Shown here in pieces: positions 5,568 through 45,719 of a DNA stretch of 64,000 nucleotides. The notes under the pieces were generated by a model. That model saw only the letters and a program-made list of their open reading frames with translations, had not been told where the DNA came from and ran no database searches. Source of the DNA: Dethiosulfovibrio peptidovorans (lineage in GTDB: Bacteria; Synergistota; Synergistia; Synergistales; Dethiosulfovibrionaceae); contig PDTB01000022.1 in NCBI GenBank assembly GCA_002748665.1, positions 32,579 to 96,578 of the forward strand. Reading direction: 5' to 3'. The number at the start of each line of letters is the position of its first letter. The first letter of the stretch is position 1. The translations under genes and the position numbers were made by a program.

Positions 5568-6665
5568 CTAAGAACGCATGTGTTCCCCCAGAACATGAGC
5601 CACTCGATCAGCTGCGTGGCCGTCACCGTAAGGGTTGGGTGAGGCGGCCATTCGTCTCAGCCTGTCGTCGTCGCTGAGTAGGGACGAGATTCGGGTACCT
5701 ACGGTATCGGGATCAGTGCCGACCAGGGTCAGTATACCGGCAGCCAGCCCTTCGGGACGTTCGGTTACGTTTCGGACGACCGCCACGGGAATACCTAGGG
5801 CTGCCCCCTCTTCCTGGAGTCCTCCAGAATCCGTCACGATGAGTCGACTGGCCGCCAGCAAGGCTGCCATAGGGCCGTACTCCAGGGGAGGAAGTACTGT
5901 GATGTTGGGCTTGCCCTCAAGAGCTGGAGTGACAGCCTGGGCCACTTGGGGGTTCAGGTGAACGGGCCAGACGAACTGGTGATCTCGATGCTCTTGAGCT
6001 GTTCGTGCCAGGGCTTGAGCCAGATCGGACAGGATCGGCCAGTTTTCTCTACGATGCAGGGTTATCGTGACCAGCTTGCCCGATGCAGGCATGGGCACGG
6101 GAAGGTCCCCTTGATTGGCTGCATACAAAACGGCGTCGATACCTGTCTGTCCGGTAATCGCGATTCGCTCGTCCGGTTTCCCCTCTGCCAGAAGGTTGGC
6201 TCTCGCTCCCTCGGTAGGGGCAAAGTACAGATCGGAGACGACATCGGTGAGAATCCGGTTGGCCTCTTCTGGGAAGGGCTCCGTCATGGAGCCTGATCGG
6301 AGACCAGCCTCCACGTGCCCTACGGGGATCCGCTCCAGAAAAGCAGCCCAGGCGACGGCGAAGGTGGTCAGGGTGTCACCGTGAACCAGCACGTAGTTAG
6401 CTTCCATCTCCCTGAGGGCCGCCGCTGTACTGGGAAGTATCCGGGCGGCCAGCTCGGTCAAGGACTGCCCCTGAACAAGCACGTCCAGCTTCTTGTCAGC
6501 CGGTACGTTGAAGAGCCTGAGGACGGAAGTGATCTGGTCTCCATGCTGGCCGCTGACCAGGACCTTGGGGATCAGCCTTTCCTGACGCAGGGCTCCGTAG
6601 ACGGGAGCCATCTTTATGGCCTCAGGGCGGGTCCCGAGAGCCAGCACGACGACTGGGGAGGTCAT
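5568..6665 (-). CDS. wecB: UDP-N-acetylglucosamine 2-epimerase (non-hydrolysing)
   Basis: This enzyme interconverts UDP-GlcNAc and UDP-ManNAc for surface polysaccharide synthesis. The 365-aa protein shows LGTRPEAIKMAPV at the N-terminus, VHGDTLTTFAVA, HVEAGLRSG and, near the C-terminus, TDSGGLQEEGAALG, all typical of the family. The start ATG at 6665 overlaps the upstream stop in an ATGA junction and has AGGAGAAGG before it. It is the last gene of a three-gene leftward operon with an SDR epimerase and an HTH protein. Confidence 0.93.
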   Translation of the reverse strand: MTSPVVVLALGTRPEAIKMAPVYGALRQERLIPKVLVSGQHGDQITSVLRLFNVPADKKLDVLVQGQSLTELAARILPSTAAALREMEANYVLVHGDTLTTFAVAWAAFLERIPVGHVEAGLRSGSMTEPFPEEANRILTDVVSDLYFAPTEGARANLLAEGKPDERIAITGQTGIDAVLYAANQGDLPVPMPASGKLVTITLHRRENWPILSDLAQALARTAQEHRDHQFVWPVHLNPQVAQAVTPALEGKPNITVLPPLEYGPMAALLAASRLIVTDSGGLQEEGAALGIPVAVVRNVTERPEGLAAGILTLVGTDPDTVGTRISSLLSDDDRLRRMAASPNPYGDGHAADRVAHVLGEHMRS

Positions 6666-35444: not shown

Positions 35445-35514
35445 ACGAAAGGGCCGGTTGGGAACATACCGAACCGGCCCTTTCGCAAACTCGATCAGAC
35501 CTCAAGTATGGACG
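35445..35514 (+). repeat. Direct repeat B1 (left flank of the exopolysaccharide cassette)
   Basis: This stretch aligns in the same orientation with 45636-45719. Both contain an AAGGGCCGGTT/AACCGGCCCTT hairpin, then CGC..A..TCG.TCAG and CTCAAG.ATGGACG; the left copy lacks about a dozen bases. In the right copy the last part encodes the C-terminus of the ABC transporter gene, so the left copy looks like a decayed duplicate of that gene end. Confidence 0.7.
35446..35485. terminator. Terminator of the nik operon
   Basis: CGAAAGGGCCGGTT pairs perfectly with AACCGGCCCTTTCG (14 bp) across a 12-base loop, eight bases past the nikE stop. Confidence 0.85.
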
Positions 35515-35529
35515 AATAAGGAGAGGGAC

Positions 35530-36630
35530 GTGTACAATAGAGCCATGAAAAAAACTTTATTAATTTTTTGGAGAGTGAGAAGGTCCCTTGGGTACATTTT
35601 TCTTCTGATGGTACTCCCTATTCATTCCGCTCAGGGAGCTCTTCCCGAATGGGTTACAGAGGTTGAGGAGGCTCTTGAAAAGCATCTTCAGGGCCCCGAG
35701 GGACTTTACCACACCAATACCTCGGATCCCAGTTATCTTTCGGAAACCTTGACTCTGCGTATGGAGCTGGCGCTACTTCGAAAGGATAAGGAAAAATTCG
35801 ATCTTCTCTGTGGCTATATGAGGAAGTATTTTCTCTCCCCCCTGGGGCTTTTATATTGGAAACTGGATTTTCTGGGAAAGCCTGTGGAGTTTTCCAATGC
35901 CAGCATCGATGATCTCAGGGCCCTTCGAGTGCTGAAAAAAGCCTTCTCTCTTTGGGAGGATGAGAAGTATCGAAATCTGTACGCCCTACTTCAGGATGGG
36001 CTTTTTCTTTATAACGTACGGGACGGACGGCTTCTTAATGGTTGTAGTTGGGAGAAACGGGGATTGCTTCAGGTCTACCGAACATTTCCTCTTTCTGACG
36101 AATTTACTCTCTCCTATGGAGACCTTGAAACCCTCCGTACCCTCGGGTTGGAGGATCCCCGCTGGCTTCCGGTCTATATGGGTACCCTCGGGATTATGAG
36201 TGGAGGGCTCTCTCTTGGGAAAGGGATTCCCTGGACATTTAACATCCCCTCAGAAGTTTTTTCTTGGGATAAAGAAAATCCCATCAACTCTCTCATTTAC
36301 ATTCTCTCGCTTTTACGGGTAGGCTTCCTTCCCCGGGAGGCTCTTGATACGTACCGTGAGGAGTTTGGAATCTTTGGATCTATACGGGACTCTCGGGGGT
36401 CCGAGAATATTGCGGTCTATGCCCTTTTTTCTCTGGCTCTCAATGAGGCGGGATATCCTCAAGAGTCCCGTCGGGTTTTGGATCGCCTGGAGTCGTTTCT
36501 TCTTACGTTTCAAGGTTATGAAGGGCTTCTGGGGTATCTTCGTGAAGATGAAGAAGGAATCTCCTGTCAAGCTTGGGTTTTCGACAATCTTCTGGCTTTG
36601 ATTGCCGCTCTTTCCGCAGAGCTCCCATAA
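35530..36630 (+). CDS. Glycoside hydrolase family 8 (BcsZ-like) exported hydrolase
   Basis: The 366-aa protein has an N-terminal signal/anchor helix (LGYIFLLMVLPIHSAQGA). SYLSETLTLRMELALLRKDKEKFDLL aligns with the GH8 block around the proton-donor Glu (SEGQSYGLFFALVAND in BcsZ). NASIDDLRALRVLKKAFSLWEDEKY aligns with [21 protein letters not shown], and LSYGDLETLRTLGLEDPRW resembles the NPSY block. GTG 35530 has AAGGAGAG; ATG 35545 lacks a site. BcsZ trims cellulose during export, and a similar editing role for this locus's polymer is likely. A+T-rich, starting just after repeat B1. Confidence 0.72.
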   Translation: MYNRAMKKTLLIFWRVRRSLGYIFLLMVLPIHSAQGALPEWVTEVEEALEKHLQGPEGLYHTNTSDPSYLSETLTLRMELALLRKDKEKFDLLCGYMRKYFLSPLGLLYWKLDFLGKPVEFSNASIDDLRALRVLKKAFSLWEDEKYRNLYALLQDGLFLYNVRDGRLLNGCSWEKRGLLQVYRTFPLSDEFTLSYGDLETLRTLGLEDPRWLPVYMGTLGIMSGGLSLGKGIPWTFNIPSEVFSWDKENPINSLIYILSLLRVGFLPREALDTYREEFGIFGSIRDSRGSENIAVYALFSLALNEAGYPQESRRVLDRLESFLLTFQGYEGLLGYLREDEEGISCQAWVFDNLLALIAALSAELP

Positions 36631-36650
36631 AAACTATTTGAATAAAAAAA

Positions 36651-36968
36651 TCACTCCTGGGGGAAGTAGAGCGTTATCTGGTTTCGAAGATCCTTGGCTC
36701 CTTTGGGGTGAAGCTGCTCCAAGACTTCATCCCTTTTCCGAGCTGTTACGATGTTTTCCTCTCTCAGGGATAGAAGTTCCAGATTATAAAGAGCTTCTGG
36801 ATCCTGGGGGTTCAAAGGGAGAGCCCGTTGAAAAGCTTCCCCGGTGCCGGGAAGAAGTCCGAGATTGAGGCAGATGAAACAGAAATCCCCGTAAGTCTGA
36901 GAAGCCCCTTCTAGGATAAGGGCTTGCCGGGAGGCTTCGAAAGCTTGCCGAGACTTCTTCTCTTCCAT
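36651..36968 (-). pseudogene. 5'-truncated TPR protein
   Basis: 105 codons with tetratricopeptide character (EEKKSRQAFEASRQALILEG, GEAFQRALPLNPQDPEALYNLELL). The frame upstream of the first Met still reads CLGYAL, the end of another TPR helix, before a stop created at the junction with an IS5-type fragment. There is no ribosome site. It therefore looks like the C-terminal end of a larger TPR protein whose 5' part was lost. It faces the GH8 gene convergently. A BcsC/PgaA-like export TPR is one possible origin (speculative). Confidence 0.6.
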
Positions 36969-37003
36969 GAGGGCATATCCTAGACAGTGTCGTCACGATA
37001 TAT

Positions 37004-37189
37004 TTACCCGCAGTCGGGAGGGAGGTCTCGCCACGGAGTGCCAGTACGCAGAATCCAGAAGACCGCATTAATAAAAAGACGGTTGTCTTGAGTCTTGCCT
37101 CCCCACGAACCCTTTCTGCCGGGAAGCTGAGGTTTCAGTAGCTTCCAGACTCTATCCGAAATGTCGTGTCTTCTATGCGATGCTTCCAT
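37004..37189 (-). mobile_element. IS5-family transposase fragment (N-terminal only)
   Basis: 61 codons with the DUF4096/IS5 start: HDISDRVWKLLKPQLPGRKGSWGG, then DNRLFINAVFWILRTGTPWRDLPPDCG, followed directly by TAA. An intact transposase continues for about 200 more residues, so this is a deletion remnant. ATG with GGGAGG upstream. The sequence just past the stop (36973-36995, GACAGTGTCGTCACGATA on the plus strand) may be the element's terminus, implying an internal deletion. Confidence 0.85.
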
Positions 37190-37722
37190 GGTACATTCCT
37201 CCCGATTCTCTATTCTGATAAGGGCCGATTGCGGTGAAAGGCTGAATTGTAACGTTATTCGTGATACACTTGCAACGATACTCTACAAGCTTCCTTCTGT
37301 TTGCTGTAGAAAATAACAGGGTTGTTGGTACATCGAGTGTGATTGGAGGTGAAAAGACCGGGAAGGAAGAACTCAGAACGAACATTCACAAACATACCTA
37401 AAAATAGCTTGCCAGTAGTGGGTAGAAAAGACAGGCGTAGTTAAAAAACAATTGCAAGACCAAAGGTTTTATGCGCACCTTGAAAGAAAAATGGTTTCGT
37501 AAGGAGAAAATCGAGTCTCCAGAGCTTTGTAGTAAACCTATGGCTCGTTTCGTTGGTTTCTGAAGCAGGAGTAATCCTCACAGATCTCTTGGTAACTTGC
37601 TTCCTGGCGCATTTCTCAACTTGTTCCTTATCAGATGGTGTCTTGTGGTCAAAACCGTGACTTTGTTGTGTGATGATACGGATTTATTTTTTATTTTATC
37701 TTTTACAGGGGAGGGTTCGTTT
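37190..37722. other. Non-coding stretch inside the exopolysaccharide locus
   Basis: 533 A+T-rich bases between the IS5 fragment and the GGDEF gene. No convincing gene, RNA or strong promoter was seen. The last 60 bases are very T-rich and lead to the AGGGGAGGG site of the next gene, so the promoter of the downstream five-gene operon is probably here. Confidence 0.5.
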
Positions 37723-38589
37723 TTGGCAAAAGAATTGCAAAAAAAGAAAAGACGCATATATATTTTAAGCTTCGGAGTGGTTGTCTTTTTTTTGGTTCTT
37801 CTTACATGGTATTTCATCAATCAATATCTTTCCTTCGCAGCCTACCTCCTCGGTTTTCTTGCCGTACTAACTTTTGCTACGGGAATTCTCTTCGGCGAGA
37901 TTCCCGCTTTGGTGCTTTCCCTTTTTGTGGTCTTCGCGTACGGATCTCTGAAAATCGGTGTTGCCTTATGGGAACCTTCCTCCTCCCCGGTTGGAGCAGG
38001 GGATCTCTTCTGGCTGTTTTTTCTACCTGCGGGAGGATTCCTTGGGGGCAGTATGTACAGGGCTCTTTCTCCTCTCTATGAAAAGCTAGAAACTTTTACA
38101 ACAGAGATTTCGGAGCTAATAGTGTGCAATGAAGTAACCTTTCTGGAAACGGGGAAGCGGTTTGCTTTCCGAGTAAGCGAGGAAATTTCCCGAGTGCGTC
38201 GTTATGGAGGAGATTTTTCTCTGCTGCTTCTGAAGATACGTTTTTTGAAGGAGCTTGAGGAAGTACATGGAGCCCGAAATCGTGACGGAGTACTCCGGAT
38301 CGTGGCAAATATTCTGCGAGGGGCGAAACGGGAAGAGGATTTCGTCGCTCAGCTTGATACGGGGGAGTTCGCTCTGCTCCTTCCCAGCACCAGTAAGGAG
38401 GGGGCTGAGGGTTTTCGGGATCGTCTCCGGAGTCAGCTTCGTTATGTTGATCTTTCGGTGGCGGATGAGGATTTTCGTCGTATCCGGCTTACCGTCCTTT
38501 TCGGGCTTTCCCATTTCCCGGGAGATGGAGAGGAGTATATTCCTCTTCTTGGCGTGGCTCGCAAGGAATACGAGTATGACATGGGGTAG
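37723..38589 (+). CDS. Membrane protein with degenerate GGDEF domain and intact c-di-GMP I-site
   Basis: The 288-aa protein has four N-terminal helices (IYILSFGVVVFFLVLLTWYF, YLLGFLAVLTFATGILFG, ALVLSLFVVFAYGSLKIG, FWLFFLPAGGFLGGSMY) and a C-terminal GGDEF fold. The active-site loop reads DTGEF (residues 212-216) instead of GGDEF, which should abolish diguanylate cyclase activity. The inhibitory site RxxD is intact as REED (203-206) at canonical spacing. TTG 37723 has AGGGGAGGG at seven bases. Domain type and site status parallel PelD, the c-di-GMP receptor of Pel systems; a receptor role is inferred. It overlaps the next gene by 14 bases. Confidence 0.82.
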   Translation: MAKELQKKKRRIYILSFGVVVFFLVLLTWYFINQYLSFAAYLLGFLAVLTFATGILFGEIPALVLSLFVVFAYGSLKIGVALWEPSSSPVGAGDLFWLFFLPAGGFLGGSMYRALSPLYEKLETFTTEISELIVCNEVTFLETGKRFAFRVSEEISRVRRYGGDFSLLLLKIRFLKELEEVHGARNRDGVLRIVANILRGAKREEDFVAQLDTGEFALLLPSTSKEGAEGFRDRLRSQLRYVDLSVADEDFRRIRLTVLFGLSHFPGDGEEYIPLLGVARKEYEYDMG

Positions 38590-40111
38590 AAGAGCAAAAA
38601 AACTTTCCCTTTTCTGGTTGGCGGTATGGGGAATCCTGGTGTTCTTTTGGGATTCTGGAGCTGCCCAGGGTTTTTTCGAAGCTCCCCGGTGCATCAAGAA
38701 AGCATTGCTTGTTCTGGGAGAAGGAGATTTGAGGCCTTCCAGCCTTGCGGAGCCCGAGATGATGGGGCGTCTTCTTCTCTCATCCTTCACTGACGATATT
38801 GAAATATGTTCCCTTGAAGAGTATCTTCCCGAAAAAAGTCGGAGTAAGGATTTTACCCTTTTTATGGCTCCCGCAAGGAGGGATTATCTCGTGTCCCTGC
38901 CCCAAAAAGGTTGTCCCTTTATGTGGATAGGTCCGGGGCTGCCTCAGCCCAATCCGCTGGAGGGGTTGGTCTCCTACGATTCCCGAGAGCAATGTCCTTT
39001 TGATCACCTTCTTTATAAAGGTATGCAATCCTTTGTGGGAACCAAGGAAACTCTCCCCTCGGTGGAAATTCTCCGAAGCAAGGATATGACGGTGTATGCC
39101 TATGCCACGAATCTCCAGAAAAAATATCCCTATGTTTTCGGAAGATCTTCTCGTCAGGAGTGGTATGTTTGCACTAACCCTTACTGGGGCAAGCACCTGA
39201 TTCCCCTTTTGGGTGTTTTGACCGTTTTTTTTAAAGATTTCAATGATTTGCCTTTGCGTCTTTTCGTACGACTTGAGGGGGTCACGCCTTTTACCTCTCC
39301 TGAACAGCTTCGGCAAATTGGTGAGTGGCTCTGGAAGCGCAAGATTCTCTTCGGCATAGCCTACCATCCCCGGAGTAAGGAATACCGGGGGGAAAGAGAG
39401 ATCCTTCTGAAGGATGCTCCCCGGCTGGTAGAGGTTCTCAATGATCTTGCCCAAAAAGGAGCTCTTCTGATTTTGGTTCACCGATTCGACTCCTCTGCCG
39501 ACGGAAAGGAGCACTTTTCCGAGGGGCTCCGAGAAGTGCTTGGTCTTTCCTGCCGGGCGGGGGTTTGCCCTTCCGCTCTCCAGATGGAAAACTACGCCCT
39601 TCCCCCGGCCTGTCTTGAGGTGGTTTCCCGTTTTTTTCCTCTTCTCTTCGGTCGTATTCAGGTAAGCCATGCGGATCCCCGGGGCACCTTCATGGTGCCC
39701 TTTCCGAGTACGATTGAGTCGATGGATTATTTCCCGGAAACTCTCGGATATGTTCGAAAAGAGGACCCCCAGGGTAGTGCCCTCGAAATTATAGGGAAAG
39801 CCAGGGATTTATCCCTTATTAGGGGAAGTGTGGGTTCCTTTGGATATGCTCCAGAATTCGGATTGGAGCTTTTGGATTTCATTGTACGCTCTCTGGAGCA
39901 CCTGGGCTATGCGGCAGCTGAGGAAAGGGAAGTCTATCCCAAGTTGGCGGATCCCGGGAAGGGGGATGTTCGGGAAAAGGGTGGGAATATTCAGCCCTGG
40001 GTATCGTCTTTGGTGGCCCTTTTTATAATCTTGGGGCTCTTTTCGGCTCTTTTGGGGGGCGTTTTCTATTTTCGTGCTTCCCGAAGAAGAAAAAAAAGGC
40101 TTTTCCGGTGA
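38576..40111 (+). CDS. DUF2334-like (polysaccharide deacetylase fold) protein lacking catalytic residues
   Basis: The 511-aa exported protein has a signal peptide (LSLFWLAVWGILVFFWDSGAA) and a C-terminal anchor (SLVALFIILGLFSALLGGVFYF). The central part mirrors the next gene's DUF2334 domain but the key motifs are altered. RLEDLNP is RLEGVTP (Gly235 for the metal Asp), HHGTSH is replaced by LVHRFDSS, APHYNFP by MENYALP, and FYHP by FGYAP. It is therefore probably a catalytically dead partner, perhaps binding polysaccharide or the active paralogue. ATG 38576 overlaps the GGDEF gene; AAGGAA is upstream. Confidence 0.72.
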   Translation: MTWGRRAKKLSLFWLAVWGILVFFWDSGAAQGFFEAPRCIKKALLVLGEGDLRPSSLAEPEMMGRLLLSSFTDDIEICSLEEYLPEKSRSKDFTLFMAPARRDYLVSLPQKGCPFMWIGPGLPQPNPLEGLVSYDSREQCPFDHLLYKGMQSFVGTKETLPSVEILRSKDMTVYAYATNLQKKYPYVFGRSSRQEWYVCTNPYWGKHLIPLLGVLTVFFKDFNDLPLRLFVRLEGVTPFTSPEQLRQIGEWLWKRKILFGIAYHPRSKEYRGEREILLKDAPRLVEVLNDLAQKGALLILVHRFDSSADGKEHFSEGLREVLGLSCRAGVCPSALQMENYALPPACLEVVSRFFPLLFGRIQVSHADPRGTFMVPFPSTIESMDYFPETLGYVRKEDPQGSALEIIGKARDLSLIRGSVGSFGYAPEFGLELLDFIVRSLEHLGYAAAEEREVYPKLADPGKGDVREKGGNIQPWVSSLVALFIILGLFSALLGGVFYFRASRRRKKRLFR

Positions 40112-41649
40112 GAAGAATTTTGTTGGGAGGATGGCTATGCGTGATGCTCCTTCTTTCCACGTCCTCTTCCCCGGGAGCTCCGCGAAAAGGCCTGGTACTG
40201 TATCATCAGTCTCTTGAGGAGTATGCAGTGGGACTGACCAACCTTCTCGGACATTTTGAAGAATATTCTTTCATGATGGTCTCGCTGGACCGTTGTTCCG
40301 AACGTCTTTTTCAGGATATCCGGAACGCCGAGGCGGTTTTTCTTCTAGGAGAAATGAAACTGGGCTCTCCAGAAAAAGCCCTCCAAAAGGTTCTTTTGGA
40401 GCGAACAAAATGTACCTGTTTTGTGGGAAATCATGAATGGCTTGACATTTTGCCTGTTCCCAAAGAAGCGACCTATGCCCTTTACAAAGGTGGAAAGTAT
40501 TGGGTGGATGGGCATTTGTTCTATCCCTTTGAAAAAACTTCTCTTTCCCGGGTATACGCATCTCTGGAAGCGGATGGAACGACCTTCCCCTTTATTTTCC
40601 AAACCCTTCGGAAAAACTGCTTTTACGTCCTGGGTTTCCCTTTTTTCGGCAAGGGGGGGCTTATACTTGCCGATTCTCTGCATGAGATCCTGGGGGTTTC
40701 TCATGAAGCAAAACGGCTTGCTATGATCCGTCTGGAAGACCTGAATCCTTCCTATGAGGGGGAGCGTCTCGAAAAACTTCGGGAGTGCATCGATTATCTG
40801 CATGGTGAAGGAATTCCTTTTGCCATGGCGGTGTATCCTGTTTTCAAGTTGGAGAGGAATCGGAAGGCCTTACGGATTCTGGAGAATGAGCCCTTTATGG
40901 AAACTTTGCGAAAGGCGGAGAAATATGGAGGAACCGTCATTCATCACGGCACTTCCCATCAGTACCGTCAGGCTTCTGGAGAGGGGTCGGAATTCTGGGA
41001 TATGAAATACGATCGTCCTGTCCCTGGGGAAAAAGAATATTTTCATGAGCATATGCGTTACGGTCTCTGGCTTTTTCGAAAGGCAGGGCTGCATCCAAAG
41101 CTTTTTGAAGCTCCTCACTATAACTTTCCCCTTTCCCTTCAAAAGGAGCTTCCCCGTTATTTTGACACTTTGGCGGGTTCCCTTATGCTTAACAACAAAA
41201 GTTATAAACTGACCCAGGATATTCCGTACTTCCTTTATCGGAGTGCCGCAGGACTTAGGGTGCTCCCAGAACAATTAGGCTATATCGAATACGATGATCG
41301 CGTGCTCTCTCACCTGAACATCGAAAAGAAATTGGAAGTATTGGATGCCATTGTACGTGATCCCTTGGCGTGTTTCTTTTACCATCCCTATGTGGAGGGG
41401 GCAAGGTATCTTCAGGAATTGGTCCCTTTCCTTCTTCAGCGGGGATATTCTTTTGTGGATGCCTCGGCCTATGCGGGGGGACTCCGCTATGATCCAGAGC
41501 CTGTGGAAGATTTATGGCCTTTGGTCAGGGGAAGAAGGGATGGGAAAATCGGTTTTGGGATTGTTACAGTTGCGGGATTGGTGGTGTTACTCTTCATCCT
41601 TATCTACGGAACCCGAAGAGTAAAACGCAGAAAGGAAATGTTTCGTTAG
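40108..41649 (+). CDS. DUF2334 family polysaccharide deacetylase-like protein (motifs intact)
   Basis: The 513-aa protein has a signal peptide (RILLGGWLCVMLLLSTSSSPGA), an N-terminal alpha/beta region, the DUF2334 domain and a C-terminal membrane helix (FGIVTVAGLVVLLFILIYG). Predicted metal and catalytic residues are all present: Asp211 in IRLEDLNP, His279/280 and His284 in HHGTSHQ, His337 in EAPHYNFP and His426 in FYHP. DUF2334 has the NodB-like deacetylase fold. It overlaps the previous gene by four bases. I infer periplasmic de-N- or de-O-acetylation of the polymer made by the GT2 protein encoded next. Confidence 0.78.
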   Translation: MRRILLGGWLCVMLLLSTSSSPGAPRKGLVLYHQSLEEYAVGLTNLLGHFEEYSFMMVSLDRCSERLFQDIRNAEAVFLLGEMKLGSPEKALQKVLLERTKCTCFVGNHEWLDILPVPKEATYALYKGGKYWVDGHLFYPFEKTSLSRVYASLEADGTTFPFIFQTLRKNCFYVLGFPFFGKGGLILADSLHEILGVSHEAKRLAMIRLEDLNPSYEGERLEKLRECIDYLHGEGIPFAMAVYPVFKLERNRKALRILENEPFMETLRKAEKYGGTVIHHGTSHQYRQASGEGSEFWDMKYDRPVPGEKEYFHEHMRYGLWLFRKAGLHPKLFEAPHYNFPLSLQKELPRYFDTLAGSLMLNNKSYKLTQDIPYFLYRSAAGLRVLPEQLGYIEYDDRVLSHLNIEKKLEVLDAIVRDPLACFFYHPYVEGARYLQELVPFLLQRGYSFVDASAYAGGLRYDPEPVEDLWPLVRGRRDGKIGFGIVTVAGLVVLLFILIYGTRRVKRRKEMFR

Positions 41650-41651
41650 TC

Positions 41652-42917
41652 ATGGTCGCTATACAAATTGATGACGTTTTTTTAGCCTGTCTGACAGTTA
41701 TATGGGTAATGCTGCTTTATCACGTGATACTTTGCTATGGAGGATATCGGTATTCCGTTAGGATGGAGCAGGAAATTGCCCAAATGGCTGAGCTTTCTTC
41801 AGAAAACTTACCCCAGGTAACGGTATTGATTCCGGCTCATAACGAAGCGTTGGTCATTGATCGGACTCTTCGCGCGGTGGCTTGCATGGATTATCCAGAA
41901 AAGAAACTGACGGTTTTATGCCTCAACGATAATTCCACCGACGGTACCGGAGAGATTGCTCGTAAGACCGCAGCATCCTTGGGGGCCCATGTTCAGGTGG
42001 TGGATGTTCCTCCTTCCCGAGGGGGTCGGGGGAAATCCGCAGTGCTCAACTATGGACTCGAAATTGCCCAGGGAGAAGTTCTTGCGGTGTACGATGCGGA
42101 TAATACCCCTGAAAGGAGTGCTCTCCTCTATCTGGTACATAATCTTGTGAAACGGGAAGATTTGGGAGCAGTAATCGGAAAGTTTAGGACTCGCAATCGT
42201 TATGTAAATTTACTTACTCGATTCATTAATCTTGAAACTATCTTTTTTCAGTGGTCCACCCAGGCTGGACGGTGGCATCTTTACAGTCTTGCCACGATTC
42301 CTGGTACTAATTTCGTGGTCTGGAAAGAACTTGTCCAGCGTATTGGAGGCTGGGATGAAAAAGCCCTTACCGAAGACACGGAGCTCTCCATACGGATATA
42401 CCTGCAGAATCAATTTATTAAGATGGTTCCCTATTCCGTGACCTGGGAGGAAGAACCTTCGAGCTGGAAGGTCTGGTTCAAACAGAGAACCCGCTGGGCC
42501 CGGGGAAATTTGTACGTTCTCAAAAAGTATTTTTTCCCCCTCCTTCTTAGGGGAAAATGGCGGCTTTTTCTCGATATGTTCTATCTCATGGGAGTGTACT
42601 TTCTTTTTCTCTCTAGCGTTTCCATTTCGCTCCTCATCTTTATTGCCGGGAGCCTTGGGGTCACCTATGTGAGTCTCCAGGGGCCCTTTAACTTTCTCTG
42701 GGTTCTGGCAGCCCTTCTTTTTGTTGTCGAATTGGGAATCAGCCTCACTGCGGAACCTGGAGAGGATCGGGGCAAAAATCTTCTTGTGGGGTTCCTGATG
42801 TATTTTTCCTACACTCAGATGTGGCTCCTGGTGATGTTCAACGCCGTGTGGCAGGGAATAGCAAGTTATTTCCAGAATGAAAAAACCTTTTGGCATAAAA
42901 CAGAACGAACGGGGTGA
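41652..42917 (+). CDS. Processive family 2 glycosyltransferase (BcsA-like, no PilZ)
   Basis: The 421-aa membrane glycosyltransferase has one N-terminal helix and the catalytic GT-A domain with NDNSTD, DAD (148-150), TED (240-242) and QRTRW (278-282), all needed for processive beta-linked synthesis. Four C-terminal helices follow. The chain stops about 30 residues after the last helix, so the PilZ c-di-GMP domain of BcsA is absent. The product could be a glucan or an N-acetylhexosamine polymer; the linked deacetylase-like gene favours an acetylated sugar. ATG 41652 has a distant AAAGGAAA. Confidence 0.88.
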   Translation: MVAIQIDDVFLACLTVIWVMLLYHVILCYGGYRYSVRMEQEIAQMAELSSENLPQVTVLIPAHNEALVIDRTLRAVACMDYPEKKLTVLCLNDNSTDGTGEIARKTAASLGAHVQVVDVPPSRGGRGKSAVLNYGLEIAQGEVLAVYDADNTPERSALLYLVHNLVKREDLGAVIGKFRTRNRYVNLLTRFINLETIFFQWSTQAGRWHLYSLATIPGTNFVVWKELVQRIGGWDEKALTEDTELSIRIYLQNQFIKMVPYSVTWEEEPSSWKVWFKQRTRWARGNLYVLKKYFFPLLLRGKWRLFLDMFYLMGVYFLFLSSVSISLLIFIAGSLGVTYVSLQGPFNFLWVLAALLFVVELGISLTAEPGEDRGKNLLVGFLMYFSYTQMWLLVMFNAVWQGIASYFQNEKTFWHKTERTG

Positions 42918-45424
42918 GCAAGGTGCAAACGAGAAGGGTACGTTTTTTATGTGCGGTCTCATTATCTTTATTTTTGTCTTTTTTCGGAGTCTCTCTGTCT
43001 TTGGGAGCCGTAACAAATGTGCGAATTGCTAAAAAAGACGGCGGTTTCCGGTTAGTCCTTGATATGAACGAGATGGCTGCCTATAGGCTGGTCAATAAAA
43101 ATTCTGTCGTGGAGGTGAACATTGATACTCTTTGTCGCAATCCTAGGAAAGGAAGGCTGCCTTCTCCAGGTAAAAGCTACTCTCTGGTGAATCAGGGGGC
43201 TTCGTGTAAGCTCCTCATTGAGTTGGATAGGGAGGATGTATCCGTATCTTCCTTCAAGCTGAAAAACCCTGCCCGTTTCGTGGTGGATGGAAAGCCCGGG
43301 AAAAGTGCTCAAAAACAACCTCTTCCTTCCTCCTTGAAAGCCAGAGAGCCTATACTCACGCCGGAACCTGAAACAACTTCTTCGGAGGGCTCCCAGCTTG
43401 TGAAAAATCACGGACTCCTCCCACTTAAAAAAATGCCTCGGGTGGTGCAGTCTGTCAATGTCCGGCTAACCCCACAGGATATACCCCTTCGTCAGCTTTT
43501 AAGCTCTAGGGTGTTTTATTTTGATATATCTCCCACGTGGAAACCCTTGGAAGGAGGATATGTGGAGCTTGTGCTGAGCCATTCGGAGCTGTTGAATCCT
43601 AGGGTTTCCAATGTGACCGTGGAGATTAATGGGGTCCCCATGAGGAGTATTCCTCTGGATAAACAGAATCTCTGGAAGGGGCATATCTCTATTCCTCTGG
43701 ATCCGGGAGCATTGCGGCCCGGGACCAATGAAATCAAACTCACCGCTCTTACGAGAACTTTCGAAGAACGGTGTTCGGATATCGATAGTCCGGGTAATTG
43801 GTACCGTCTTCACAAAGAAAGTCTCGTTCATCTACGCTATATCCAGAAGGAAGCTTTGAAACTAGAGGATTTCCCCTCTCCCTATTTTGAAACGAATCAC
43901 TATCGTGTGGATAATACCGTGCTGGTTTTGCCTGACCAAGCAACTCCACAAGAACTCTCCGCTGCGTATGCGTTGCTTCTTCAGTGGAGTTTGGATGCTC
44001 CGGGGAAGGATATTCAGGTGGGGGTACGGCATTTTGGAGAAATTTCCTCTTCACTTGCCCATCGTATGAACCTCATTTATATAGGACGGAGAGACGCCTT
44101 TCCTGAAGATTTTATGAGAGTTTTCGGGGTTCCGGAGAACCTTTCCGGGGAGGTTTATTACAAAACCTTTCTCAATGACCTGGGATTGGGGCGTATGTGT
44201 GTTACCGGGAGTACTGCTCAAGATGTCCTCTTTGGAGTACGGAGTTTGCTGGCCCGGGAGATTCGGAAGCAAATGCCCTTTAGCAAGGCCTTTCTTGCGC
44301 TGGATACCCCCCTGCCCCAGAAGAAATCCTCCAAAGAAATGGGGACGGATATTCCTTTGGACCGGCTTTTCCTGCCGGATATAGTAATGCGGGGAATTTC
44401 CCTGCATCACGAAGAAAACTTCAGCTTCCGTATTCCTCCTCAATGGGATGTTTACGGTCATCCTAAGTTGGTTCTGCTTTTCCGGCATTCCCCGAATCTT
44501 GACAAGGTCAAGTCCACTCTTGAAGTGGATATCAACGAAGTTCCCCAAAGGGGTACGTCCCTTACTCCTGAAAATGCTGCGGAGGGAATTTTGACCGTGC
44601 CTCTCGAAAAAGAAGCGGTAAAAAAAGACTATGTCAATGTGTGTCTCCGGGGGTATCTTGATATCAATGTCCCCGACTGCTCCCGTTTTTATACTGAATC
44701 TGCCTGGATGGTTGTGGATAAAAAATCTTATTTTCATCTTCCTCACAGAGTGCGAAGATTAAAACCCCTTTTGGAAAACCTTCCCCATGCTTTTCTGGAT
44801 CCAAACCTGAACATCTACATGGATCCCGGGGTTGGAGGGGAGGAGCTTTCCGCTTTGGGGAGGGTGCTTCAACGCTGGCAGGCTCAGATGTTCCTCCCCT
44901 TGTCTGTAGAGGTCTTTTCGCTTCCGAAAAACGTGGATTCCTTCTCAGAAGGAAATAGGCTCATTTTTGCTCCCATGAACAAATTGACTGGTCGGGGACT
45001 TGATCTCTCGGTAGGGTATGATGACTCCAAAAAAACGCTGCTCTCAGGAACTCGGGTTCCTGTTGTAGCTCCCTTTGGGGAGGATGCGATCTTTTTTCAG
45101 GTTATTTCCGAAAAAACGGGGGTTACTGTGGTCATGAGCTGGGCGAATCAAGCTCCCCGGGAAGCTTTTTTGACGAAAATGCTTCTTCGGCGAAAACTTC
45201 GGGGAGACACCTGCCTGGTCTCTCCTGCAGGCGAAGTAGTCCCTTTTTATCTCAGGGAAGAAGCGGAGAAAACGAGAGAGGAGGAAAGTTCCATACTTTC
45301 CTGGTCCAATATACTGGATTCCCTTCGAGGAAGTAAGCGTTCCCTGGGGATCTTCTCTTTTGTGGTACTTCTCATCATGAGTGTCATTGTCTTTTCTCTC
45401 TTTCGATCTTTCCGAAAAAGATAA
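42914..45424 (+). CDS. BcsB-like periplasmic polysaccharide synthase subunit
   Basis: The 836-aa protein has a signal peptide (FLCAVSLSLFLSFFGVSLSLGA), an AMIN-like region (TNVRIAKKDGGFRLVLDMNE), then two BcsB-type units. The first is at about residues 195-470, with YVELVLSHSELLNPRVSNVTVEINGVPMRSIPL and TFEERCSDIDSPGNWYRLHKES; the second is at about 500-790, with PKLVLLFRHSPNLDKVKSTLEVDINEVPQRG. A C-terminal anchor helix (IFSFVVLLIMSVIVFSLF) follows. BcsB guides the nascent chain and its anchor activates BcsA. It overlaps the GT2 gene by four bases, confirming a synthase pair. The last intact gene of the cassette. Confidence 0.87.
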   Translation: MSKVQTRRVRFLCAVSLSLFLSFFGVSLSLGAVTNVRIAKKDGGFRLVLDMNEMAAYRLVNKNSVVEVNIDTLCRNPRKGRLPSPGKSYSLVNQGASCKLLIELDREDVSVSSFKLKNPARFVVDGKPGKSAQKQPLPSSLKAREPILTPEPETTSSEGSQLVKNHGLLPLKKMPRVVQSVNVRLTPQDIPLRQLLSSRVFYFDISPTWKPLEGGYVELVLSHSELLNPRVSNVTVEINGVPMRSIPLDKQNLWKGHISIPLDPGALRPGTNEIKLTALTRTFEERCSDIDSPGNWYRLHKESLVHLRYIQKEALKLEDFPSPYFETNHYRVDNTVLVLPDQATPQELSAAYALLLQWSLDAPGKDIQVGVRHFGEISSSLAHRMNLIYIGRRDAFPEDFMRVFGVPENLSGEVYYKTFLNDLGLGRMCVTGSTAQDVLFGVRSLLAREIRKQMPFSKAFLALDTPLPQKKSSKEMGTDIPLDRLFLPDIVMRGISLHHEENFSFRIPPQWDVYGHPKLVLLFRHSPNLDKVKSTLEVDINEVPQRGTSLTPENAAEGILTVPLEKEAVKKDYVNVCLRGYLDINVPDCSRFYTESAWMVVDKKSYFHLPHRVRRLKPLLENLPHAFLDPNLNIYMDPGVGGEELSALGRVLQRWQAQMFLPLSVEVFSLPKNVDSFSEGNRLIFAPMNKLTGRGLDLSVGYDDSKKTLLSGTRVPVVAPFGEDAIFFQVISEKTGVTVVMSWANQAPREAFLTKMLLRRKLRGDTCLVSPAGEVVPFYLREEAEKTREEESSILSWSNILDSLRGSKRSLGIFSFVVLLIMSVIVFSLFRSFRKR

Positions 45425-45635
45425 GTTGTTGGAGACAAGGAGAAGGGAAAAGAAAAGTTCAAAAATATTTTACGGGGGATATGGAGGACTTCCTGAACAA
45501 CAGTGCTTGAGTAACCCGAGAAAGAGATCGTCAAGTTTATCCTCAGGGAAGATCTGTATCCGTATGAACACAAAATCTGCAAGCGAGCGCTTCTGCAGGT
45601 TATTCAGGAGCCCCAGCACATCCTGTTTAATAGAA

Positions 45636-45719
45636 ACGAGAAGGGCCGGTTTGTACTATCCCAAACCGGCCCTTTGCGCGAATTCGCTCAGGCTCCCATC
45701 TGAGCCTCAAGCATGGACG
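45636..45719 (+). repeat. Direct repeat B2 (right flank of the exopolysaccharide cassette)
   Basis: Partner of 35445-35514. It comprises the terminator hairpin and the last ~30 bases of the ABC transporter gene on the minus strand (encoding SMLEAQMGA and stop). The rest of 45425-45635 holds no recognisable gene. Confidence 0.7.
45641..45674. terminator. Bidirectional terminator between bcsB-like and ABC transporter genes
   Basis: AAGGGCCGGTTTG pairs perfectly with CAAACCGGCCCTT (13 bp) across an eight-base loop. It resembles the nik terminator at 35446-35485. Confidence 0.8.

Follow-up and report, generated by a model that had tools for sequence, protein, structure and literature searches.

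The window analysed here is a stretch of 64,000 nucleotides from Dethiosulfovibrio peptidovorans (C22:32579-96578; genome size 2.06 Mb). Its open reading frames and Pfam searches reveal six genes, all on the + strand, which encode in this order a GH126 glycosidase-like protein, a degenerate GGDEF membrane protein, two DUF2334 proteins (D1 and D2), a GT2 polymerase and a BcsB-like protein. Such a block had been proposed in an earlier note made from the sequence alone, and its last five genes are indeed tightly packed, with overlaps of 14, 4 and 4 nt or a spacing of 2 nt at their junctions; because relatives repeat the same order, the array is not a chance one. The gap between the GH126 and GGDEF genes measures 1092 nt, as against 4-54 nt in four relatives (judged by the limits of the open reading frames). 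It holds a transposase-like fragment (36982..37219, - strand), which is a ~70-residue open translation in one frame and IS5-type by eye, as well as a small antisense open reading frame (36651..36968, - strand) that appears TPR-like by eye.

The operon is bracketed by two near-identical hairpins with a common 11-nt stem half. The left one (35448..35483; stem AAGGGCCGGTT-loop-AACCGGCCCTT; fold z -6.3) starts 10 nt past the stop codon of a gene that reads by eye as an oppF-like ABC ATPase, and a convergent ABC exporter gene ends at a distance of 12 nt from the right one (45640..45675; fold z -5.2). The whole 2.06 Mb genome contains exactly two exact copies of the hairpin pattern, both of them bracketing the operon, and the segment between them is AT-richer than its surroundings (GC 0.478, compared with 0.56 on both sides). 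The hairpins may be the terminators of the two convergent neighbours, or they may mark a duplicated insertion site. The six other genomes of the genus revealed no empty site; under the E-value limits applied, their best matches to the flanking genes are 47% (oppF-like) and 39% (exporter). In G026, which has the best exporter match in the phylum (65%), neither an oppF-like end nor such a hairpin lies beside the exporter gene, so insertion of the segment was not demonstrated. Elsewhere in the window, a SAM riboswitch (2106-2211) is found upstream of a gene that reads by eye as S-adenosylmethionine synthetase (820-2013, - strand).

The six encoded proteins

The first gene (35545..36630, + strand) encodes a protein of 361 aa, the YdaJ/PssZ counterpart, which the earlier note had taken for a GH8 hydrolase. 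It gave no Pfam or NCBIfam match. In a PDB search, a profile of six Synergistota hydrolase copies found two GH126 chains first (3ren, 4e-34; 6r2m, 3e-27), followed from 2e-5 down by chains of the glucanase/cellulase type, which we take to be GH8. As the GH126 chains score far better, GH8 membership was rejected. 3REN is CPF_2247 and 6R2M is Listeria PssZ, both described as GH126 in PMC7479077, which also lists one Synergistetes GH126 protein and relates that PssZ was at first named GH8 by its authors. The CPF_2247 residues E84, D136, R139 and Y194 have counterparts, located by counting along the alignment by hand, that do not vary among the six Synergistota copies; the counterpart of Y307 is kept in four of them, the window copy included (for the roles of these residues, see PMC7479077).

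The second gene (37723..38589, + strand; Pfam GGDEF, 54.4 bits) starts with TTG after AGGGGAGGG and is preceded by a good ribosome site. Its product, the YdaK/PssE counterpart and a putative c-di-GMP receptor, is a membrane protein of 288 aa (288-289 aa in relatives) with N-terminal hydrophobic stretches as judged by hydropathy. The GGDEF motif is broken (DTGEF) and the I-site is intact (REED, R203-D206). Five of the six D2-bearing Synergistota loci yielded a copy; in every one of the five the motif is broken (DTGEF, GRDEF, DEAEF, SEGEY and SEGEY) and RxxD stands intact five residues before it. The genome has five further GGDEF domains, and the four that were inspected, one of them within the window near 58.5 kb, all have an intact GG(D/E)EF. 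In YdaK of B. subtilis, RxxD at 202-205 is followed by SDERI, and a change of either I-site residue abolishes polymer production (PMC5422440). Listeria PssE binds c-di-GMP with a Kd of 0.79 uM and is required for the polymer (PMC4125290); c-di-GMP binding, the need for the I-site protein and polymer production have in this way been demonstrated by others in relatives.

Both DUF2334 proteins, which the earlier note had read beside a GGDEF receptor-like protein, pass the Pfam cut-off of 26 and carry a C-terminal TM stretch: D1 (38576..40111, + strand) with 29.1 bits and D2 (40108..41649, + strand), the YdaL counterpart and a putative deacetylase, with 129.9 bits. D2 keeps D211, H280, H284, H337 and H426 (in RLED, HGTSH, PHY and YHP), an Asp/His set common to one Comamonadaceae and one Streptomyces DUF2334 protein, the former with FHP in place of YHP. 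We take these conserved residues to be metal ligands like those of CE4 deacetylases, in which case those of D2 would bind metal. D1 of the window has lost four of the five and retains a His at the H284 position; D1 of G060, a genome of the same taxonomic order, has lost all five, and the DUF2334 protein Da of G065, the start of which is cut off, has lost H280, H284 and H337 and kept H426. The deacetylated polymer envisaged in the earlier note is plausible as far as D2 is concerned, but not as the work of D1.

Across 306 aligned positions, D1 and D2 share 24% identity; D1 is full length in both the window genome (G000) and G060. A tree of 11 rows separates the two D1s, grouped with 100/99 support, from the five D2s, so D1 does not seem to stem from a recent duplication; a shorter tree of 12 rows left the D1 pair unresolved. 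D2 of G061, which is cut by a contig end, was omitted from both trees, and Da of G065 from the first. Against solved structures, D2 gave E-values of 0.39 and worse only, and against phage records no match at E 1e-3. Listeria PssB is listed as a deacetylase, and the cell-wall-bound polymer needs it (PMC6307706). As in that system, DUF2334/PssB-like secreted proteins precede the GT2 of the window (D1 and D2), and the match to PssB itself is weak, with an E-value of 5e-4 over 92 residues. However, D2 has HGxxH, whereas the L. innocua PssB (L016:5470-6978) keeps the Asp, lacks HGxxH and aligns with the DUF2334 model (203 positions) at positions 6-71 only, which makes the link between D2 and PssB a weak one.

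The GT2 polymerase (41652..42917, + strand; 421 aa; Pfam GT2, 104.2 bits) is the YdaM/PssC counterpart. DAD, D243 and QRxRW are invariant in 8/8 aligned rows, and the identity to the GT2 of L. innocua is 43.7% and to that of E. faecalis 43.5%, in each case over 98% of the length. The adjoining gene, which overlaps it by 4 nt (42914..45424, + strand), encodes the YdaN/PssD counterpart, with a Pfam BcsB match of 120.8 bits, an N-terminal AMIN-like stretch and a C-terminal TM stretch. PilZ gave no Pfam match in the GT2 or in the rest of the six genes, in agreement with the synthase-dependent exopolysaccharide locus lacking PilZ that had been proposed. A profile of four Synergistota BcsB-like proteins and one from L. 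innocua found BcsB chains at 1e-10 and PilQ at 6e-5, the latter at positions 27-76. The Pfam AMIN model (cut-off 20.5) passes in G060 (23.2) and G072 (25.3) and stays below its cut-off in the window (13.3) and in G065 (15.5), so the AMIN reading is firm for G060 and G072 and by homology only for the window. The window protein shares an identity of ~20% with the BcsB of L. innocua, which, unlike the window protein with its AMIN-like stretch, has no AMIN match.

Distribution in Synergistota and beyond

Relatives of D2 are present in 6/185 Synergistota genomes searched, and in 3/115 of the genomes with a completeness of 90% or more and a contamination of 5% or less. A BcsB match occurs in 11 of the 185, all six D2-bearing ones included. 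The complete order GH126-GGDEF-D1-D2-GT2-BcsB is found in the window and G060, and G072 has the same order without D1. In G063 and G061 the order agrees as far as the contig ends, with BcsB beginning another contig; GT2 was not seen in G061. G065 is rearranged, and its 13.5 kb contig, which starts within a DUF2334 gene, has no GGDEF. The earlier note had set conserved co-occurrence against a scatter of single genes in close relatives: wider relatives do carry the block, but the six other genomes of the genus, one of which has a completeness of 66%, yielded no D2 relative. Composition and spread together suggest a transfer of the operon into this genus, and we infer that it arrived as one block.

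In G072, genes for an SLH beta-barrel porin-like protein (L019:3750-5210) and a 562-aa secreted protein (L019:2059-3747) lie behind BcsB with spacings of 43 and 2 nt. The porin is perhaps a candidate for the outer-membrane exit; since relatives of it occur in five of the six D2-bearing genomes, it may instead be a general porin. The 562-aa protein had no Pfam match, and the profile of the DUF2334 set reached it only at E 0.42. Two of the five BcsB-bearing genomes without D2, G027 and G059, encode a GT2 of greater length close to a weak match for BcsB, which probably represents another system; the G027 protein (L061:2508-4343) is 611 aa long with an extra N-terminal domain, somewhat reminiscent of NfrB-type synthases. 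Outside the phylum, BcsB matches among 14 control genomes were confined to E. coli and B. subtilis, while seven had DUF2334 matches, B. subtilis being the sole one to have both families. In the Leptolinea record H47, a BcsB-like stretch lies amid other polysaccharide genes, with no DUF2334 annotated. A Comamonadaceae plasmid locus (L071:1269-10215) has the order wecB-GT-hypothetical-DUF2334-TPR-DUF4434 with no annotated BcsB, and with its TPR protein it is a possible proteobacterial relative.

The other three of these five, from the family of G060 (G054, G050 and G045), have a BcsB-like gene at 25-27% identity without a synthase (L058:7075-9537, L062:1574-4096 and L060:6819-8867, respectively), and no GT2, GGDEF, DUF2334 or GH126 match was found in the 12-17 kb around it. 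All three genes sit between a ligase-like and a tadA-like gene (named by eye), the same pair that flanks the whole operon in G060. The ligase-like gene matches that of G060 at 78% in two genomes; in G045 the match is a piece of 69 residues at 90%. The tadA-like gene matches at 71-74%. This suggests that the rest of the operon was lost in place, and therefore an old presence of the operon in the family of G060.

As the BcsB-like gene stands alone in these genomes, such operons do erode, and the operon could likewise be decaying in the window, with the transposase-like fragment having severed GH126, D1 being a dying duplicate and little or no polymer being made. The 1092-nt gap with its fragment would fit, as would the lone genes between the flanks of the G060 operon. 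However, all six reading frames are open and five are tightly packed, the GGDEF gene has its ribosome site, and D1 is full length in both genomes, where the D1s group together in one of the two trees. We therefore regard decay as improbable.

Comparison with known synthase systems

Polymer synthases of the Yda/Pss class that are gated by c-di-GMP are known from Firmicutes. The earlier note had held that the combination of genes matches no standard system; this proved incorrect, as it parallels both ydaJKLMN of B. subtilis and pssA-E/pssZ of Listeria. By published gene names and order and by the domains ascribed to its proteins, the window resembles ydaJKLMN in content, in order, in its degenerate GGDEF membrane receptor and in the RxxD before the broken motif. 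Here we take YdaL to be a DUF2334 protein and YdaN to be BcsB-like, in keeping with the finding that, of the control genomes, B. subtilis alone has both families. The B. subtilis operon consists of the glycosyl hydrolase gene ydaJ and the c-di-GMP receptor gene ydaK, followed by ydaLMN, which are reported to be essential (PMC13274460, PMC5422440). The window differs in its second DUF2334 protein (D1), its Synergistota host and the transposase-like fragment after the GH gene; we also list the AMIN-like stretch on BcsB as a difference, in this case without comparison to YdaN.

The Listeria system shares with the window the GT2, a BcsB-like protein (PssD), a GGDEF I-site receptor (PssE) and a GH126 protein (PssZ). 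In the window, by contrast, the PssA-like protein is absent, the GGDEF gene comes first rather than last and the GH gene lies inside the block. A tblastn search of the window with the E. faecalis copy found no PssA-like membrane protein at E up to 10, and none is named in the yda operon as published (PMC13274460). E. faecalis NZ_CP143580 has a row of genes for a GH126-like protein (E 4e-6), a membrane protein, a PssB-like protein, the GT2 with 43.5% identity, BcsB (60 bits, frame split) and a PssE-like protein (E 6e-39 to L. innocua); it differs in that its PssB-like protein has no DUF2334 match and its PssE-like protein no RxxD. Given the ydaJKLMN parallel and the distribution of BcsB and DUF2334 in the control genomes, the six-gene locus is best assigned to the Yda/Pss class, as a member from one more phylum that varies from the others in D1 and the AMIN-like stretch. 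The gene set has thus been described before, as the earlier note had allowed for, although as neither of the two variants, cellulose and PNAG, that it had named.

We consider it highly improbable that the locus is a PNAG (Pga/Ica) variant, in which the GT2 would make poly-beta-1,6-GlcNAc and D2 would be the counterpart of PgaB/IcaB. PgaC_IcaA is indeed the best NCBIfam model for the GT2, but its 146.9 bits fall far under the cut-off of 422.3; the porin-like gene and the further secreted protein behind BcsB in G072 are loosely like PgaA and PgaB. To our knowledge, neither a BcsB-like protein nor a GGDEF receptor is a part of pga/ica systems. For the pss operon, both are stated to be foreign to pga/ica (PMC4125290). 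In addition, the GT2 has its 43.7% identity to a Listeria protein, and the Listeria Pss polymer is reported to consist of ManNAc and galactose 2:1 (PMC7479077).

Even less credible is a cellulose synthase variant, with GT2 and BcsB making and exporting beta-1,4-glucan and GH126 replacing BcsZ: the window does have GT2 plus BcsB as in cellulose Bcs operons, with 120.8 bits for the BcsB family and cellulose synthase chains at 2e-24 in the GT2 profile search (slightly behind chondroitin synthase, 1e-26), but the CelA model gives 73.3 bits against a cut-off of 699.1 and scores below PgaC_IcaA, the GT2 has no PilZ, the six genes include nothing BcsC- or BcsZ-like, the hydrolase is GH126 in the place of GH8, and a deacetylase-like protein would be of no evident use on glucan.

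Relative to the Yda/Pss kind as described, what is new here is the Synergistota host, a D1 with lost residues, the N-terminal AMIN-like stretch on BcsB, the AT-richer segment bracketed by hairpins and the transposase-like fragment after GH126. Among the articles listed in a literature search, none treats this Synergistota locus, as judged by titles or the starts of abstracts; DUF2334 occurs in a single one of the articles searched, by its title a marine metagenomic survey of unknown domains. The main text of PMC7112194, a survey of such operons, does not contain "Synergist", "Listeria" or "ydaK".

Proposed mechanism and implications

From its gene content, gene order, homology and residue patterns, the locus is very probably a Yda/Pss-type exopolysaccharide synthase operon that works along the following lines. 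Its product machine would most likely be a c-di-GMP-gated poly-HexNAc synthase, with a polymer that D2 partly deacetylates. The GT2 would polymerise a nucleotide sugar, most likely UDP-HexNAc and possibly UDP-ManNAc, and thread the chain across the inner membrane; on the periplasmic face, the BcsB-like protein would guide it. We infer that c-di-GMP made by the other cyclases of the cell would bind the inactive GGDEF membrane protein at its I-site; this protein may then activate the synthase by contact and so replace PilZ. In the periplasm, D2 would remove some of the acetyl groups, D1, without most of the conserved residues, may act as a binding or assembly partner, and GH126 may trim or release the polymer, which would finally leave through the outer membrane.

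As to the sugar, the yda polymer is reported, by lectin, to contain alpha-Gal and/or GalNAc (PMC13274460), and members may therefore differ in their sugar. A relative of the GT2 on an A. variabilis plasmid lies two genes from wecB, among neighbours without a BcsB or DUF2334 match, and the Comamonadaceae DUF2334 locus starts with wecB. The only wecB-like (UDP-GlcNAc 2-epimerase) gene found in the D. peptidovorans genome is located in the window itself (5589-6650, - strand). These occurrences of wecB are no more than suggestive of ManNAc.

Counted against the Yda/Pss-type operon are the missing PssA match, the weak link between D2 and PssB, the ~20% identity of BcsB, the rearrangement in G065, the lack of an outer-membrane exit (the six genes include no outer-membrane exporter) and the fragment after GH126. 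A more specific form of this reading, which we regard as rather unlikely, is a double-membrane Yda/Pss machine in which the pseudo-deacetylase D1 would pair with active D2, and an AMIN-bearing (peptidoglycan-type) BcsB would pass a partly deacetylated, cationic polymer through the wall to a barrel in the outer membrane whose gene lies elsewhere.

With the assignment to the Yda/Pss kind, a class of c-di-GMP-gated polymer synthases that is still poorly understood now reaches into Synergistota. Synergistota are diderm, and if this holds for the host, there is a second membrane for the polymer to cross. Two roles are conceivable for the DUF2334 component, with D2 keeping the conserved residues and D1 having lost most of them. 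As Listeria PssB is listed as a deacetylase and its L. innocua copy has no HGxxH, the question "enzyme or scaffold?" is now testable for DUF2334.
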